A stretch of DNA of 10,834 nucleotides from an uncultured Coriobacteriales bacterium (GTDB lineage: Bacteria; Actinomycetota; Coriobacteriia; Coriobacteriales; UMGS124): contig CAKUKJ010000047.1 of the NCBI GenBank assembly GCA_934662525.1, positions 1 through 10,834 on the forward strand, written 5' to 3'. A program made the position numbers and the translations under genes. Position 1 is the stretch's first letter. Each line of letters opens with the position of its first letter. The notes beneath the pieces were generated by a model. That model saw only the letters and a program-made list of their open reading frames with translations. It was not told the DNA's origin and did not search any database. Of this stretch, positions 3,722 to 10,344 are shown piece by piece.

Positions 3722-3750
3722 AACGGCTTATTTCCGGCTTTTCAGCCGTT
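3722..3750 (-). other. Hairpin overlapping the DUF721/DciA stop codon
   Basis: On the minus strand CGGCT-GAAA-AGCCG can form a stem across the TGA stop at 3742-3744. The same 5' arm can alternatively pair with a second AGCCGTT further downstream (AACGGCT at 3744-3750 with its complement at 3722-3728), so two structures compete. No T-run follows, so I do not call it an intrinsic terminator. It may protect the 3' end or merely reduce read-through into gyrB. Confidence 0.3.
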
Positions 3751-4236
3751 GTTGGACTTTTTCCACCTGAGACTTGCCGTCATGGCCTGACGCGCCCTCT
3801 CCTTAAGCCTTGGGTCGGAGATGCACGCGATTTGGGCCTCCACCCACTCCCCTTCGGCCGCGTTGAGGTCGGGAAGGTCGGCCGGCTCATAGGCACGCTC
3901 GACCACCTCGTCGTGCGCAGGCGCGGCATGCACGCGTGAGGAGACCTGAAACCGCAGGTACCTTGCACGCAGATCCGGCTGGGCCCGTTCGGCCCGCATG
4001 TTCCATTCGGCGAGGATGGCAGGGGCGTTGAGCTGAAACTCCTGGGCCCACAGGGCCGAGTCGGTATACAGCACGAGCTCAAGGCCCTGCTTTCTCTGCA
4101 CGGGGTAGCAGCCCACGACATGGGATCGCAGGCGTCTGTCGCGCAGCGCGCGCACGATCCCCATGGCGCGGCCTATCTGGGACGTCGTGCGCCCCTTGCT
4201 CGCGGCGCGGGCCACGACGTCGTCGAACACCGTCAC
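3742..4236 (-). CDS. dciA: DUF721 / DciA-type protein, candidate replicative helicase loader
   Basis: The 164-residue protein has the DUF721 core in its middle (about residues 35-100), with the recognisable stretch LVLYTDSALWAQEFQLNAP followed by a hydrophobic helix and YLRFQV. The family is known as DciA, which helps load the replicative helicase DnaB in bacteria lacking DnaC/DnaI. Actinobacteria carry it between recF and gyrB, exactly as here. The N-terminal 30 residues are basic and the C-terminal 40 are acidic then basic; neither shows a known motif. The GTG start at 4236 overlaps the recF stop as GTGA, with GAGG just upstream inside recF, indicating translational coupling. A later start at Met25 is possible. 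The family call is firm to moderate; the loader role is inferred from the family. Confidence 0.77.
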   Translation of the reverse strand: MTVFDDVVARAASKGRTTSQIGRAMGIVRALRDRRLRSHVVGCYPVQRKQGLELVLYTDSALWAQEFQLNAPAILAEWNMRAERAQPDLRARYLRFQVSSRVHAAPAHDEVVERAYEPADLPDLNAAEGEWVEAQIACISDPRLKERARQAMTASLRWKKSNNG

Positions 4237-6470: not shown

Positions 6471-6490
6471 CTCTTTGGTCCCTTCTTTTT

Positions 6491-6540
6491 CTTATATATA
6501 AAGGTAGTAGTAACAGTAGGTCGGTTTGAAATGTTGAATA
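6491..6540 (-). other. Candidate basal unwinding element of oriC: DnaA-box-like sites, GC patch, DnaA-trios, A+T-rich tract
   Basis: Read in the dnaA-to-dnaN direction (minus strand): TATTCAACA (6532-6540), a degenerate neighbour TTTCAAACC (6523-6531), a GC patch (around 6520-6524), then CTA CTG TTA CTA CTA (6505-6519), then CTTTATATATAAG (6491-6503). On the plus strand the trinucleotides are TAG TAG TAA CAG TAG, matching the published DnaA-trio consensus 5'-TA(A/G)-3' in four of five units, with the middle A kept in all. Element order and orientation equal those of the B. subtilis basal unwinding system between dnaA and dnaN. The elements are seen directly; the function is inferred. Confidence 0.6.
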
Positions 6541-6594
6541 GTCTCACAAATGCCTGGTAGATGATAGAAAACTTTTGCCTTTCAGCCCTTGTTT

Positions 6595-6675
6595 TCTTCA
6601 ACTCGTTTCAACGCGCGTCCAGGTGCCTTTCTGCCTTCGGCAAGTATTGCACAGGCTTTGAACGGCCTTTCAACC
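6595..6675 (+). repeat. TTTCAAC-like sites at the dnaA 3' end and spacer
   Basis: Three degenerate copies of the putative box lie in one orientation: TCTTCAACT (6595-6603), GTTTCAACG (6605-6613) and CTTTCAACC (6667-6675), the last ending just downstream of the dnaA stop. The last also pairs with TTGAA at 6658-6662 as an inverted repeat. Each differs from TTTTCAACA at two positions, so they would be weak sites at best. Together with the site at 6532-6540 they make this spacer the second half of a possible two-part origin. Confidence 0.4.
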
Positions 6676-8367
6676 TCATTTCGACTCATTGCACAGCCTG
6701 TTCTTGAAGTCTTCGAGCTGACGGGCGTAGCCGTGGTCGGCGTTGCGCTTCTCGTTGATGACCTTGATGCCATGCGTGATGGTGGCGTGGTTGAGCCCCA
6801 CGACGTCGCCGATGGACTGGTACGTCTCGTCGGTGAGCTGGTTGGCGAGCCACATGTAGACCTGCCGCGCCTCCTTGATGTCCTTTGTGCGGCTGCGCGA
6901 GGTGATCTGCTCGTATGACACGCCGTACTCCTTCGTGACGGCCTCGATGATCTTGTCGAGGCTGATCTCGGCCGCCACGTTGAACTGGGAGTCGATGTAG
7001 GCCCGAATCCCGTCGGGTGTGAGCAGGTTCGGGTCAAACTCGGCGCGCATCATGATCGAGTTGACGAGCCCTGTCATCTGCCGGGGGTTGTCTGGGCAAT
7101 GTTGTGCGATGACCTCGAAGTTTGCATCCGAGATGCGCGCCCCGCCGATGCCGTTGCGCGTGCGGTAGCGCTCATAGAGGCTCTTGAGGATGGACAGCTT
7201 CATCTCCCAGGTGGGAGCTTGGATGTCGGCGACCATGCCTTGGGAGAACCGTGTGGTGAGGCGCGGGTCGAGGTCGAGGTAGTCGGGCGCCCGGTCGGCC
7301 GCCAGCACGATCTGCTTGTTGCCTGCGAGGATAAAGTTGTTGAATATCTCGAAAAGGGCCGTGACCGACTCCATCTTCTGCTTGAAGAGCTGGATGTCGT
7401 CGAGCAGGAGCACGTCGACGTTGCGCATGCTGCGCAGCACGTCGTTGCCGCGCAGCTTTCTGACCTGCACTTCCTCAACGTACTGGTTGATGAACATCTG
7501 GGCGGAGACGTATTGCACGCGCACGCGCGGCTGGTGCAGCGCGATGTAAGACTGAATCGCGAGCAAAAGGTGCGTCTTGCCGTTGCCCGAGGGCCCCCAG
7601 ATGAAAAGCGGGTTGAAAAGGCTGCCGTCAGGCTGCTCGGCGACGTTCATCGCGAGGCGGTAGGCGATTTGGTTTGAGTCGCCCACGACGTAGGTGTCAA
7701 ACGTGAAGTCGGTGCTGCTTTGGGCTTTGACCTCGTCTTTTTGTTCAATGCCCTCCTCAAGCACCGGGATGGGTTGAGAGGTTGGGGCATTGCTCACACC
7801 CGTGGCGGAGGGGTTTTCAACCAAAGTTGAAACCGGTGATTGAAAACGGTGCGCCCCACCCGCCGTCGGCGCGGCCGATGTGGGCTGACCCACAGGGCTC
7901 GGCATGGGGACCTCGCCCGACAGGATGCGCGAGTGGATGCGCGGCCGACCTGTGCTGGACATCTTTCCAGCCAGCGCGGCGGCGCTCAGGGGTGCGGCGG
8001 CTGCCGTTGCGGGCTGTGCAGCGGATGCGACCGACGCGGGCTCTGCGGGCGGCTGCACGTCCGTGTCGTTCTCGGCGCCCTGGCCGGCGGTGGGCATCTC
8101 GGCCCCGCCCTCCACCTCCACCTCAAGCGAGACGGGCTCCATGGTGATTTCGGCCATGAGGGCCTCGACTGCCTCACGATACCTGCCTGTGAGGTTGCGC
8201 GCGGCCCACTTCTGCTTGGTGGCGAGGCGCATGACCGCACCGTCGAACGACAGGGGGCGCGCCCGCTCAAGCCATGCGATGAGGTCGTCTTGGCCTTTGG
8301 AGCGCGCCTCGTCGAGCATGTCGGCCCACAGGTACTGGGCGTCTTGTTCAAACATCTCCTGGCTCAT
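6676..8367 (-). CDS. dnaA: Chromosomal replication initiator DnaA with divergent DNA-binding domain
   Basis: DnaA binds origin boxes, oligomerises with ATP and melts oriC. The protein has 563 residues, long because of domain II. Domain I is about 1-78; domain II (about 79-215) is Ala/Pro/Ser-rich with a basic island RPRIHSRI near 141-148. Domain III is AAA+ with Walker A GPSGNGKT (258-265), Walker B VLLLDD (319-324), an ADRAP sensor-1 region (357-361), TTRF (371-374) and a sensor-2 segment PRQMTGL. Domain IV (about 465-563) keeps the arginine matching E. coli Arg399 (R493) but has GLNHATITHG (524-533) in place of the usual GGRDHTTVLHA. The ATG at 8367 has GGGAGG 6 bases upstream, overlapping the stop of the preceding gene, which implies translational coupling. 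Identity is sure; altered DNA specificity is inference. Confidence 0.96.
   Translation of the reverse strand: MSQEMFEQDAQYLWADMLDEARSKGQDDLIAWLERARPLSFDGAVMRLATKQKWAARNLTGRYREAVEALMAEITMEPVSLEVEVEGGAEMPTAGQGAENDTDVQPPAEPASVASAAQPATAAAAPLSAAALAGKMSSTGRPRIHSRILSGEVPMPSPVGQPTSAAPTAGGAHRFQSPVSTLVENPSATGVSNAPTSQPIPVLEEGIEQKDEVKAQSSTDFTFDTYVVGDSNQIAYRLAMNVAEQPDGSLFNPLFIWGPSGNGKTHLLLAIQSYIALHQPRVRVQYVSAQMFINQYVEEVQVRKLRGNDVLRSMRNVDVLLLDDIQLFKQKMESVTALFEIFNNFILAGNKQIVLAADRAPDYLDLDPRLTTRFSQGMVADIQAPTWEMKLSILKSLYERYRTRNGIGGARISDANFEVIAQHCPDNPRQMTGLVNSIMMRAEFDPNLLTPDGIRAYIDSQFNVAAEISLDKIIEAVTKEYGVSYEQITSRSRTKDIKEARQVYMWLANQLTDETYQSIGDVVGLNHATITHGIKVINEKRNADHGYARQLEDFKNRLCNESK
7814..7846. repeat. Cluster of three TTTTCAAC-like sites inside dnaA (domain II)
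   Basis: TTTTCAACC (7814-7822, plus), GTTTCAACT (7825-7833, minus) and TTTTCAATC (7838-7846, minus) lie within 33 bases of otherwise G+C-rich coding DNA. The first two form an imperfect inverted repeat. They encode part of the poorly conserved linker (about residues 174-185), where codon choice is free to carry a second signal. Binding is not shown. Confidence 0.4.
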
Positions 8368-8370
8368 GCG

Positions 8371-9744
8371 TTACCTCCCTTGTGCAATCTCGTTGAACAG
8401 GCGCTGGCCTGCCTCGGTCAACACGTACTTTTGTCCCGCCTTCACGATGAACCCAGCTTCAGCCACCTTCTGCAGGCGCCTTCCTGCCGTTGCGTTCGAC
8501 ATGCCCGTGGCCTGTGCGACCTCCGTGCCGCCGACTTTCTCAAAGGTGAGGAAGAGGCTGATGATCTGGGCCTCCTCGGGGTCGACGGTGCTTTGGGCGG
8601 GGGCTGCCTGCGGGTTTGCGGCCGGCATGGAGGGCATGCCCGCGCCTTGCCGCATGGCGGGAGCCTCGCCCACCCCTGTCCCGAAGGGCGCCTGGGGCGT
8701 CATGGGAGCAGGGCCTGCGGGGTTTGTCGGCCATGGTTGGCCGGCTTGCGCCTGGTAGGGGTTCCAGCCAGACACCTGGCACGGCATTCCTTGTGCGGCT
8801 TGCCCGCCCGGCACGGTCATAGCTTGTGCTCCGCCCTGGTTTTGCACTCCGGCGGCTCCATAGGGCGCTTGGCTTGCGGGCCAGGCTTGTTGCCCCGTTC
8901 CTTGCATGTACATGCCGTTTTGCCCGGCAGACATGTAGCCTTGCTGGGGGGAGCACATCCCTTGCTGCTGTTGCGGCATGGTGGCCGGTGCCTGTTGAAA
9001 ACCCTGCGGTATCTGGGGGCTGCCGTACATGGCGTAGGGCTGGGCCTGCGACAACGGCGGCATATAGCCTTGCTGCGCTGCCATGCCGGGCCACAGGCCC
9101 TGTGCCTGGGGTTGGCCCATCCCATATGCGTTCGTTTGTCCCGCCGGCACCCCCGTGCCGGCGCCGACGTTCTGAGAAGCTCCCGAGATGGCGTCGGGCG
9201 CCTTCGCCGCCTCGTCTTTGTGCGCGAGCGACACGGTAATGACGGCGCCCTGCCCAAGGTTGTCTTCTATGGAGATGCTGCCGTGCTGCAGCTTGACCGT
9301 GGCCTCCACCATGGGAAGCCCCGACCCCGTGCCCCTGATGTAGCGCTTCATCGCCTTCGTGGCGCTGGAAAAGGTGGGGCGCAGCGCCGCCTGCTTGTTG
9401 GGGATGCCGGGCCCCTGGTCGGAGAACGAGATGGTCTGACCCTTGTCCATGATGGAAATGGTGGGCTCGATAAACTGGGCGTGGATGTAGTTCTCCACAA
9501 GTTCGCGGATGATGTGCCAGGGCCATTCGCCGCCTTGCTGGGTTGCAAGCTCCCACACGTTCTTGGTGATCTCATCAAGGTACGTGCGCACATCGCTTGG
9601 CGGCACCGTCACCACGCGCGGCGGCACCGTCATCGAGTCATATACGGCTATACGCGCGGGCTGCTTGGGCGCGGCGACGTCATCGTCGTCGCCAGCCTGT
9701 GCATCGCCTGCGTTTTCCACGAATGGGTAGAACGTGTCGGACAA
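8371..9744 (-). CDS. Unnamed GHKL-ATPase / disordered linker / winged-helix-like protein, first gene of the dnaA operon
   Basis: 457 residues; no named family recognised for the whole protein. Residues about 70-175 form a GHKL (Bergerat) ATP-binding domain: N-box ELVENYIHA (E81, N85), DQGPGIP (109-115), GTGSGLPMVEA (138-148) and a DNLGQGAVITVSL end. No histidine-kinase dimerisation domain or phospho-accepting histidine box is apparent, nor a membrane segment or signal peptide. Residues about 185-385 are low-complexity, rich in Gln, Gly, Pro, Ala, Met and Tyr. Residues about 388-455 look like a winged helix-turn-helix (EVAQATGMSNATAGRRLQKV, then a hairpin-like VKAGQKYVLTEAG). The TTG start at 9744 is chosen because GGGAGG lies 5 bases upstream; a nearby ATG is out of frame. 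It ends 3 bases before dnaA. A cytoplasmic nucleotide-sensing, possibly DNA-binding regulator of initiation is a plausible inference only. Confidence 0.85.
   Translation of the reverse strand: MSDTFYPFVENAGDAQAGDDDDVAAPKQPARIAVYDSMTVPPRVVTVPPSDVRTYLDEITKNVWELATQQGGEWPWHIIRELVENYIHAQFIEPTISIMDKGQTISFSDQGPGIPNKQAALRPTFSSATKAMKRYIRGTGSGLPMVEATVKLQHGSISIEDNLGQGAVITVSLAHKDEAAKAPDAISGASQNVGAGTGVPAGQTNAYGMGQPQAQGLWPGMAAQQGYMPPLSQAQPYAMYGSPQIPQGFQQAPATMPQQQQGMCSPQQGYMSAGQNGMYMQGTGQQAWPASQAPYGAAGVQNQGGAQAMTVPGGQAAQGMPCQVSGWNPYQAQAGQPWPTNPAGPAPMTPQAPFGTGVGEAPAMRQGAGMPSMPAANPQAAPAQSTVDPEEAQIISLFLTFEKVGGTEVAQATGMSNATAGRRLQKVAEAGFIVKAGQKYVLTEAGQRLFNEIAQGR
8374..8379 (-). promoter_or_regulatory. dnaA ribosome binding site overlapping the upstream stop region
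   Basis: On the minus strand GGGAGG lies immediately before and abuts the TAA stop (8371-8373) of the upstream gene, 6 bases from the dnaA ATG. Ribosomes finishing the upstream gene would arrive on the dnaA start signal, so the two proteins are probably made in linked amounts. It also fixes the dnaA start. Confidence 0.8.
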
Positions 9745-9749
9745 GGCAT

Positions 9750-9755
9750 CCTCCC
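9750..9755 (-). promoter_or_regulatory. Ribosome binding site that fixes a TTG start
   Basis: Minus-strand GGGAGG sits 5 bases before TTG at 9744-9742. It decides the start of the unnamed GHKL gene, since the ATG at 9749-9747 is in another frame and no closer in-frame ATG or GTG is suitable. Confidence 0.75.
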
Positions 9756-9773
9756 TGAAAACGGTAGAAGGTT

Positions 9774-9805
9774 ATCTTACGCCCTTCTCTTGGTTCTTTT
9801 TTCAA
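9774..9805 (-). promoter_or_regulatory. Weak candidate promoter of the GHKL-dnaA operon
   Basis: Minus strand: TTGAAA at 9800-9805 and TAAGAT at 9774-9779, separated by 20 bases, longer than ideal. The TTGAAA lies within the first DnaA-box-like site (9799-9807), so DnaA bound there would block it. No better promoter was found in the 444-base gap for this direction. Confidence 0.25.
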
Positions 9806-9825
9806 CATTTCATTGATGTTGAAAA
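9799..9825. repeat. Perfect 10-bp inverted repeat made of two box-like sites
   Basis: TTTTCAACAT (9799-9808) and its exact reverse complement (9816-9825) flank a 7-base centre. It is two facing TTTTCAACA sites, suited to a pair of DnaA molecules, rather than a transcription terminator, since no T-run follows on the minus strand in the direction of the adjacent gene. Confidence 0.75.
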
Positions 9826-9864
9826 CTTCTCAACTTCTTGAACTTTCTAACTTTTCATCTTGAA

Positions 9865-9894
9865 AATGAACAATGAACAGTGAAAACAATGAAC
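9865..9894 (+). repeat. AATGAAC heptamer repeats in the origin region
   Basis: AATGAAC occurs at 9865-9871 and 9872-9878 directly in tandem, and again at 9888-9894 after the related AGTGAAAAC. They are interleaved with the TGAAAA core of the box-like sites. They could be degenerate boxes, an unwinding tract or simple sequence drift. Confidence 0.5.
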
Positions 9895-9977
9895 TTTTCG
9901 ACTTACTTTTTCATTTTCGTCTATGAAAAACATCTCTGTTTTCATGTGTGTTGAAAAGTCTTGTGAAAAGTTGAAAA

Positions 9978-10107
9978 GTTTGAACGCCGAGACGGCTGCC
10001 CTTGCCGCTTGATAACCGATGATTGGCGTTCATGGGGCTGTTGGTTTGAATTGTGGAGAGGTTTTACCGTTTTACATGCAGTTTTTGCACGGTACCTTGA
10101 GGCTTTA
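9978..10107. other. Remainder of the origin-side gap, no clear element
   Basis: Between the box cluster and the rpmH promoter I see no gene. There is a 6-bp inverted repeat TACCGT/ACGGTA (10065-10070 and 10089-10094) with an 18-base centre, and one two-mismatch match to a canonical DnaA box on the minus strand (10052-10060). Neither is strong evidence for a function. Confidence 0.5.
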
Positions 10108-10136
10108 TTGACATCATTTGCTGCTGTGAATAGGAT
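10108..10136 (+). promoter_or_regulatory. rpmH promoter (sigma-70 type)
   Basis: Consensus -35 TTGACA (10108-10113), a 17-base spacer, then TAGGAT (10131-10136) as -10. Transcription would begin near 10143, giving a leader of about 46 bases that ends in AGGAGG. This is the strongest promoter in the window, as expected for a ribosomal protein gene. Confidence 0.8.
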
Positions 10137-10188
10137 TGGAAAACTGCTTTACCCGCCATTTGTGCTTTATATATACCAGGAGGATTCG

Positions 10189-10344
10189 ATGAAGCGCACT
10201 TACCAGCCCAACAAGAGGCATCGTGCCAAGGTGCACGGCTTCCGTGCCCGTATGGCCACCAAGAACGGCCGCAAGGTTCTCGCCCGCCGTCGTGCTAAGG
10301 GCCGTGCTAAGCTCACCGTCTCTGACGAGCGCCACACGAAGTAA
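10189..10344 (+). CDS. rpmH: 50S ribosomal protein L34
   Basis: L34 is a small basic protein of the large ribosomal subunit. The 51 residues begin [20 protein letters not shown] and continue through [20 protein letters not shown], the family hallmark. It is a few residues longer than the usual 44-47 because of the C-terminal SDERHTK. The ATG at 10189 has a perfect AGGAGG (10178-10183) 5 bases upstream; a longer in-frame reading from 10009 crosses the promoter and is rejected. It is first in rpmH-rnpA-yidD, the common bacterial order. Confidence 0.98.

Follow-up and report, generated by a model that had tools for sequence, protein, structure and literature searches.

The DNA analysed here (the window, 10,834 nucleotides) is arranged around an AT-rich intergenic region, the upstream gap, placed between two groups of divergently transcribed genes (Table 1). 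To its left, on the minus strand, are found part of a gyrA-like gene, gyrB, a reading frame with a weak match to DciA, recF, dnaN, dnaA and a gene for an ATPase/winged-helix-like protein; to its right, on the plus strand, lie rpmH and rnpA, giving the order dnaN-dnaA-(one gene)-gap-rpmH-rnpA. A second intergenic region separates dnaA from dnaN. The DciA match (3742-4236, between recF and gyrB) falls short of the curated cut-off (22.8 against 24 bits). A promoter-like TTGACA-17-TAGGAT precedes rpmH at 10108-10136; one was found with 0.7 expected from shuffles, which is no excess. Rfam gave no match at gathering thresholds. At third codon positions of the coding strand, C exceeds G in every gene, the seven left of the gap as well as the two right of it, a count covering 10.8 kb only, over which local skew is uninformative.

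The gene between the upstream gap and dnaA (8371-9744) encodes a product whose C-terminal stretch matched the winged-helix models HVO_A0261_N and HTH_45 below their cut-offs. Two of its weaker homologues are named Atopobiaceae, which lends some support to the original placement of the DNA in Coriobacteriia. Among its 120 listed relatives, ten have a longest contig equal in size to that of a DnaA among P0002-P0054 (e.g. 34772, 29433, 130693 and 40127; compared by eye), and this equality of contig sizes suggests that the gene is linked to dnaA across the group.

Table 1. Features of the window, from left to right; roles in replication are predicted.
Feature	Position	Strand	Remarks
dnaA-dnaN intergenic region, proposed second sub-origin	6471..6675 (205 bp)	.	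4 TTCAAC cores; 43% GC
AT-rich stretch TTATATATAAA	6492..6502	+	adjoins the far side of the DnaA-trio; candidate unwinding start
DnaA-trio array TAGTAGTAACAGTAG	6505..6519	+	fits the published definition
Spacer GTCGGTTTGAAA, trio to box	6520..6531	+	12 nt
Predicted DnaA box TATTCAACA, adjoining the trio	6532..6540	-	position 6 is A; sole mismatch at position 2
Weaker box-like sites TCTTCAACT (6595), GTTTCAACG (6605), CTTTCAACC (6667)	6595..6675	+	
dnaA	6676..8367	-	Bac_DnaA and Bac_DnaA_C domains
dnaA codons 525-532, L-N-H-A-T-I-T-H	6772..6795	-	aligned to E. coli R432-H439 (1j1v, numbered by hand)
TTTTCAACC copies within dnaA	7611, 7814		absent from the original prediction
ATPase/winged-helix-like gene	8371..9744	-	HATPase_c domain, glutamine-rich middle; between upstream cluster and dnaA
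Fourth exact TTTTCAACA	8993..9001	-	inside the 8371-9744 gene, upstream of dnaA; absent from the original prediction
AT-rich intergenic region, proposed upstream sub-origin with DnaA-box cluster	9745..10188 (444 bp)	.	39% GC, window 62%
Predicted DnaA box, exact TTTTCAACA	9799..9807	+	inside left arm of inverted repeat
Predicted DnaA box, exact TTTTCAACA	9817..9825	-	
Two-mismatch sites (four)	9827, 9852, 9895; 9961	+; -	no excess over chance for AT-rich DNA
Likely weaker box TTTTCAAGA	9858..9866	-	1 mismatch
Predicted DnaA box, exact TTTTCAACA	9949..9957	-	
Predicted DnaA box TTTTCAACT	9969..9977	-	1 mismatch
rpmH (ribosomal protein L34)	10189..10344	+	divergent side of the origin

The upstream gap, flanked by the dnaA-containing operon and rpmH, carries a cluster of DnaA-box-like 9-mers, as an oriC adjoining a dnaA operon should. 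The original prediction had counted three exact TTTTCAACA sites and two with one mismatch in this region, and both counts are correct (Table 1); the first two exact copies belong to a perfect 10-nt inverted repeat with arms at 9799-9808 and 9816-9825. The further claim of at least five weaker sites holds only in part: four sites of the cluster have exactly two mismatches. When the gap (9745-10188) was shuffled 2,000 times with its dinucleotides preserved, three exact copies were never reached (0/2,000; mean 0.04), and the five copies with at most one mismatch were reached once (0.66 expected); these figures are post hoc because the motif derives from the cluster on which it was tested. Within the narrower stretch 9787-9985, three exact copies were reached in 1/2,000 shuffles. 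Admitting up to two mismatches leaves no excess in the gap (9 copies against 5.0 expected; 122/2,000). The four exact copies score highest in the window with a matrix, but this matrix was derived from sites that differ from TTTTCAACA by at most one base and so is no independent test of the word. The DnaA-trio arrangement and the comparison with spirochaetes, both described below, are more independent tests than the shuffles.

Copies of the motif are also present inside genes: TTTTCAAC occurs three times in coding DNA with 0.10 expected (0/400 simulations). The coding copies thus exceed those of simulated coding DNA, and the TTTTCAACA-type motif extends beyond the two gaps. As originally stated, the window holds no perfect TTATCCACA (0 exact copies). 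Also absent from the whole window is TTTTCCACA, so that the origin holds neither of the two words of which the canonical TTATCCACA box class has at least one; TTWTCCACA is found in neither the upstream nor the dnaA-dnaN gap.

The dnaA-dnaN gap, which the original prediction had passed over, contains four TTCAAC cores in 205 bp with 0.15 expected (0/2,000 simulations). None of them belongs to an exact TTTTCAACA; one lies in a one-mismatch site and three in weaker ones. The elements follow one another in the order dnaA - boxes - trio - AT-rich - dnaN. According to the relevant passages of PMC8287927 and PMC6669920, DnaA-trios are repeats of consensus 3′-GAT-5′ that adjoin a DnaA box, and the part of PMC8287927 on spacing places the peak of the trio-box spacer at 10-13 bp, a range that includes the 12 nt of the window. 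The array TAGTAGTAACAGTAG includes one CAG, and the second tandem box beside it is poor (GGTTTGAAA). As in a basal unwinding system, at least three DnaA-trios lie no more than 16 bp from a box that has the same orientation as elsewhere, and the strand arrangement of trio and box is the same in spirochaete and Clostridia loci.

The arrangement was formalized as a rule with two parts: at least three triplets from TAG, TAA, CAG and AAG, of which at least two TAG, and, at a distance of 9-15 nt, a 9-mer resembling a box, scored at positions 1-4 and 7-9 only with six of the seven correct. Throughout the window the rule has a single match, in the dnaA-dnaN gap, and it has none in the upstream gap. 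By chance it matched 11 of 20,000 simulated dnaA-dnaN gaps of the same composition and none of 300 simulated whole windows. Since positions 5 and 6 of the box are ignored by the rule, the A at position 6 (A6) beside the trio is read independently of it. Across the survey 71 of 201 sequences matched, some genomes being counted twice, with 12 nt as the commonest spacer (40/71; 9-15 allowed); position 6 of the trio-adjacent box was C in 42, A in 23, G in 4 and T in 2 of these matches.

Box clusters therefore flank dnaA on both sides, as in a bipartite origin. The stretch very probably belongs to the chromosomal replication origin, with the TTTTCAACA boxes as its DnaA boxes, and this origin looks bipartite, one half lying on each side of dnaA. 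Because the sole match to trio and box is in the dnaA-dnaN gap and there is none upstream, opening is predicted in that gap, 3.3 kb from the upstream cluster; the DNA-opening element is thus probably there and not at 9787-9985. What had been called an oriC cluster very probably does consist of DnaA boxes of oriC, with consensus TTTTCAACA, but it is probably just one of the two halves.

We propose the following model. DnaA would bind the TTTTCAACA boxes upstream of the dnaA operon (9799-9977) and, in the dnaA-dnaN gap, TATTCAACA, a box of the A6 type. Starting from this second box, a filament of ATP-DnaA would extend across the 12-nt spacer onto the trio TAGTAGTAACAGTAG, and the filament on the trio would open the AT-rich DNA next to it; the precedent is the basal unwinding system of Bacillus subtilis. 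We assign this reading a probability of about 0.86. The two halves of the origin would cooperate and, since the upstream boxes precede the dnaA operon, they may also serve in its autoregulation. The boxes, the trio, their spacing and the gene order can be read directly from the sequence, whereas DnaA binding, the opening site, the cooperation between halves and the autoregulation are what we infer from it.

The converse assignment, with the upstream cluster as the unwinding half and only accessory boxes in the dnaA-dnaN gap, would explain why all three exact intergenic boxes are upstream, in the gap that is also longer and more AT-rich (39% against 43% GC). Yet the same rule that finds the trio and box arrangement in the dnaA-dnaN gap finds it nowhere upstream, and in B. 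subtilis the order dnaA - boxes - trio - AT-rich - dnaN is the same; we consider this assignment unlikely, though it keeps an appreciable share of the probability. Unwinding in the dnaA-dnaN gap, the preferred reading, also agrees with the overall plan of the B. subtilis origin, which is bipartite (incAB/incC), has boxes to either side of dnaA and contains a basal unwinding system. Such a bipartite layout is described for B. subtilis and Clostridioides difficile in the portion of PMC7561715 that deals with it, and the B. subtilis dnaA-dnaN gap has, like that of the window, a box, a short spacer and a 3′-GAT-5′ DnaA-trio as defined in PMC8287927 and PMC6669920 (passages concerned). The window differs from B. 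subtilis in that its boxes are TTTTCAACA and TATTCAACA instead of TTATCCACA, in the extra ATPase/winged-helix-like gene between the upstream cluster and dnaA, and in the poor quality of the second tandem box beside the trio.

Relatives from Coriobacteriia numbered 0 among the 19 stretches of a first scan of genome contigs, and none of the 99 stretches (52 loci) of a second one was titled Coriobacteriia or any Actinomycetota. Viral contigs gave eight loci, all distant, and plasmids 56 records, all below 60% identity. The scan with Coriobacteriia-like DnaAs led to 15 spirochaete loci (L009-L011, L013-L023 and L042; titled Bullifex, Aphodenecus, Sphaerochaetaceae and Spirochaetales MAGs), each with 3-8 exact TTTTCAACA; a later set of 15 spirochaete loci with this word contains the same DnaAs (last 300 residues identical) and was counted once. 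In these loci TTTTCAACA occurs 76 times in 75.3 kb of dnaA flanks (2.5 kb beside dnaA) against 9 times in 174.8 kb elsewhere, dnaA itself being included in the latter. The controls gave, near and far, 4 and 1 copies of the reversed word and 1 and 1 of TTATCCACA. In one of these spirochaete genomes the dnaA contig carries, in two short clusters, 12 of the 23 copies of TTTTCAACA present genome-wide. Seven of the 15 loci match the trio rule and eight do not; in all seven the adjacent box is A6 (six TTTTCAACA, one GTTTCAACA).

The spirochaete clade hence resembles the window in the TTTTCAACA clusters flanking dnaA (there, with the gap after dnaA), in the A6 box placed 9-15 nt from a DnaA-trio in the seven matched loci, and in the T-H at positions 438-439 of DnaA helix 5; the same box type recurs there in the same arrangement. 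It is unlike the window in belonging to another phylum, in keeping D433 (RDHST) and in having its clusters after dnaA instead of before it. In the open-licence literature searched, to which this statement is limited, we found no description of TTTTCAACA origins in the clade.

A neighbouring group of 15 loci (L106-L120) belongs with the clade to one order, which we take to be Sphaerochaetales. Its boxes are of the TTTTCCACA type, with 5-9 TTWTCCACA and 0-2 TTWTCAACA per locus, and the trio-adjacent box has C at position 6 (C6) in 11 of 11 matched loci, four of the 15 having no match. In a tree of DnaA without domain IV, the TTTTCAACA clade (support 1.0) and the neighbouring group (0.999) each form a single clade, and the node that unites them (0.988; midpoint root) takes in only L139 and L140 besides.

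Two further observations concern spirochaetes. Locus L201 (2083-2391; genome G003, contig C13 near 15.6-15.9 kb) holds a cluster of four TTTTCAACA and two TTTTCCACA about 11 kb from the cluster adjoining dnaA and beside a reading frame that we take to be murA-like; it may serve as a reservoir for DnaA or be another half of the origin. In L121-L125, L137 and L138, whose recognition helix has KNH, only 2-5 TTWTNNACA are present per locus near dnaA, none of them repeated.

The spirochaete comparison bears on the proposal that the upstream cluster is the operator of some other DNA-binding protein, such as the winged-helix protein encoded downstream, and controls the dnaA operon or rpmH with no role as origin. 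The sites do directly precede the winged-helix-like gene, and its product does have a weak C-terminal winged-helix match. But in the spirochaete clade this 9-mer is the repeat that flanks dnaA, at the distance of a DnaA box from DnaA-trios, and the TTCAAC core recurs beside the DnaA-trio in the dnaA-dnaN gap of the window, which leaves the operator proposal very improbable.

The recognition helix of the window DnaA, GLNHATITHG, is odd. The 15 best-matching DnaAs (P0001-P0015) all have GLNH(A/S)TITHG, and the other aligned DnaAs have mostly GGRDH(S/A)TV, with (S/R)RDHSTV in P0016-P0018, P0020 and P0021 (alignment n=33). Numbered by hand after E. coli DnaA (1j1v), the window protein has R399, Q423, L432, N433, H434, A435, T438 and H439. 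The residues that contact bases in E. coli are, in the section of PMC7561715 concerned, R399, P423, D433, H434, T435 and H439; the window has R, Q, N, H, A and H, so that three of the six are substituted and the protein falls outside the canonical class. Least probable of the alternatives is an ordinary DnaA specificity with degenerate canonical sites as true boxes and the TTTTCAACA repeats as AT-rich filler: the cluster is 70% AT, its two-mismatch sites show no excess and T at position 3 (T3) fits the E. coli consensus as far as quoted below, but TTWTCCACA is missing from both gaps, where exact TTTTCAACA occurs three times, and half of the E. coli base-contacting residues listed in that section are replaced. 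An AlphaFold model of the protein (mean pLDDT 68; 81-91 in ten-residue blocks over residues 471-560) has an ordinary helix-turn-helix, with residues 527-543 as helix 5, and is uninformative on specificity.

A link between these substitutions and A6 readily suggests itself, and several residue rules for A6 were considered. The turn before helix 5 is shorter by one residue in the window and in the spirochaete clade. The box of Mycobacterium tuberculosis is C6, and the short turn is found in its DnaA too (3pvp), as well as in seven Acidobacteria loci, six with TTTTCCACA and one (L035) with neither type of box, and in L132 and L158, which have C6 beside the trio. T438-H439 fails because ordinary helices also occur with A6 boxes (L073, L077, L181), and N433 because DnaAs that have it elsewhere lack a consistent box, the trio-adjacent sequences being TTATTGACA in two spirochaetes and TTTTCGACA in one Faecalibacterium-type genome. 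No residue rule for A6 held up in the survey, and all were rejected as sufficient explanations. The Lachnospiraceae DnaA of L024, with a strange helix, was dropped as an apparent second dnaA copy with no box cluster nearby; this divergent DnaA-like gene (7583-9041 of a MAG) has similar repeated DNA on both sides and looks mobile or duplicated. We offer only tentatively, as a conjecture we doubt more than we believe, that the helix of the window DnaA was reprogrammed (R432-D433-H-T435 to L-N-H-A, with T438) and the whole origin, the trio-adjacent box included, shifted to A6, convergently with and independently of the spirochaete clade.

The original prediction held that the box had changed at positions 3 and 6. 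The E. coli consensus TTWTNCACA, as quoted in parts of PMC5043019 and PMC7561715, allows T3, so that A6 alone departs from it. That the box is peculiar to the lineage does not stand: exact TTTTCAACA characterizes the 15-locus spirochaete clade, A6 is met elsewhere, and the mollicute consensus TT(A/T)TC(C/A)ACA, as given in an excerpt of PMC3322544, includes TTTTCAACA as one member. Mollicutes mix C and A at position 6, whereas in the window the three exact intergenic sites and the trio-adjacent box all have A6. In epsilonproteobacteria a one-position shift is class-wide (core TTCAC), and residues 435 and 438-439 of helix 5 have been proposed as its cause (PMC5043019, in the part on these boxes); their boxes have T at position 5 and C at position 6, against C and A in the three exact intergenic sites of the window, which thus does not belong to that class.

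Of the 45 trio-adjacent boxes that come from neither the window nor the two spirochaete groups, 8 have A6, and some of these are poor boxes. Clear cases are TTTTCAACA in L012, L070 and L073 and TTATCAACA in L077, and A6 boxes beside dnaA are present in other spirochaetes as well. TTATCAACA also occurs near dnaA in some genomes from the phylum of a Faecalibacterium (five copies in L141, four in L142) and in one, L181, from that of a Bacteroidaceae genome (three copies). The trio-adjacent box differs from TTATCAACA in L141, L142 and L145, with C6 in the last. As a side observation, L141-L143 and L145, whose helix 5 has EEFG-KDH, carry TTATCAACA and TTATTAACA near dnaA and other sequences beside the trio. 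The box of the window is hence uncommon and not unique to its lineage, and the origin is very probably real, and probably functional.

In the procedure as excerpted from PMC8287927, a published search for unwinding elements takes TTATCCACA as its starting point except in species for which a box of their own is listed, so that it may overlook origins whose boxes are A6, or place them wrongly. A shift of the box requires an essential initiator and several of its sites to change together. The same box in two unrelated lineages, one of them beside a C6 neighbour, makes such a shift testable with small purified domains. If helix and origin did shift convergently, they would provide a natural experiment on how an initiator and all its sites change specificity.
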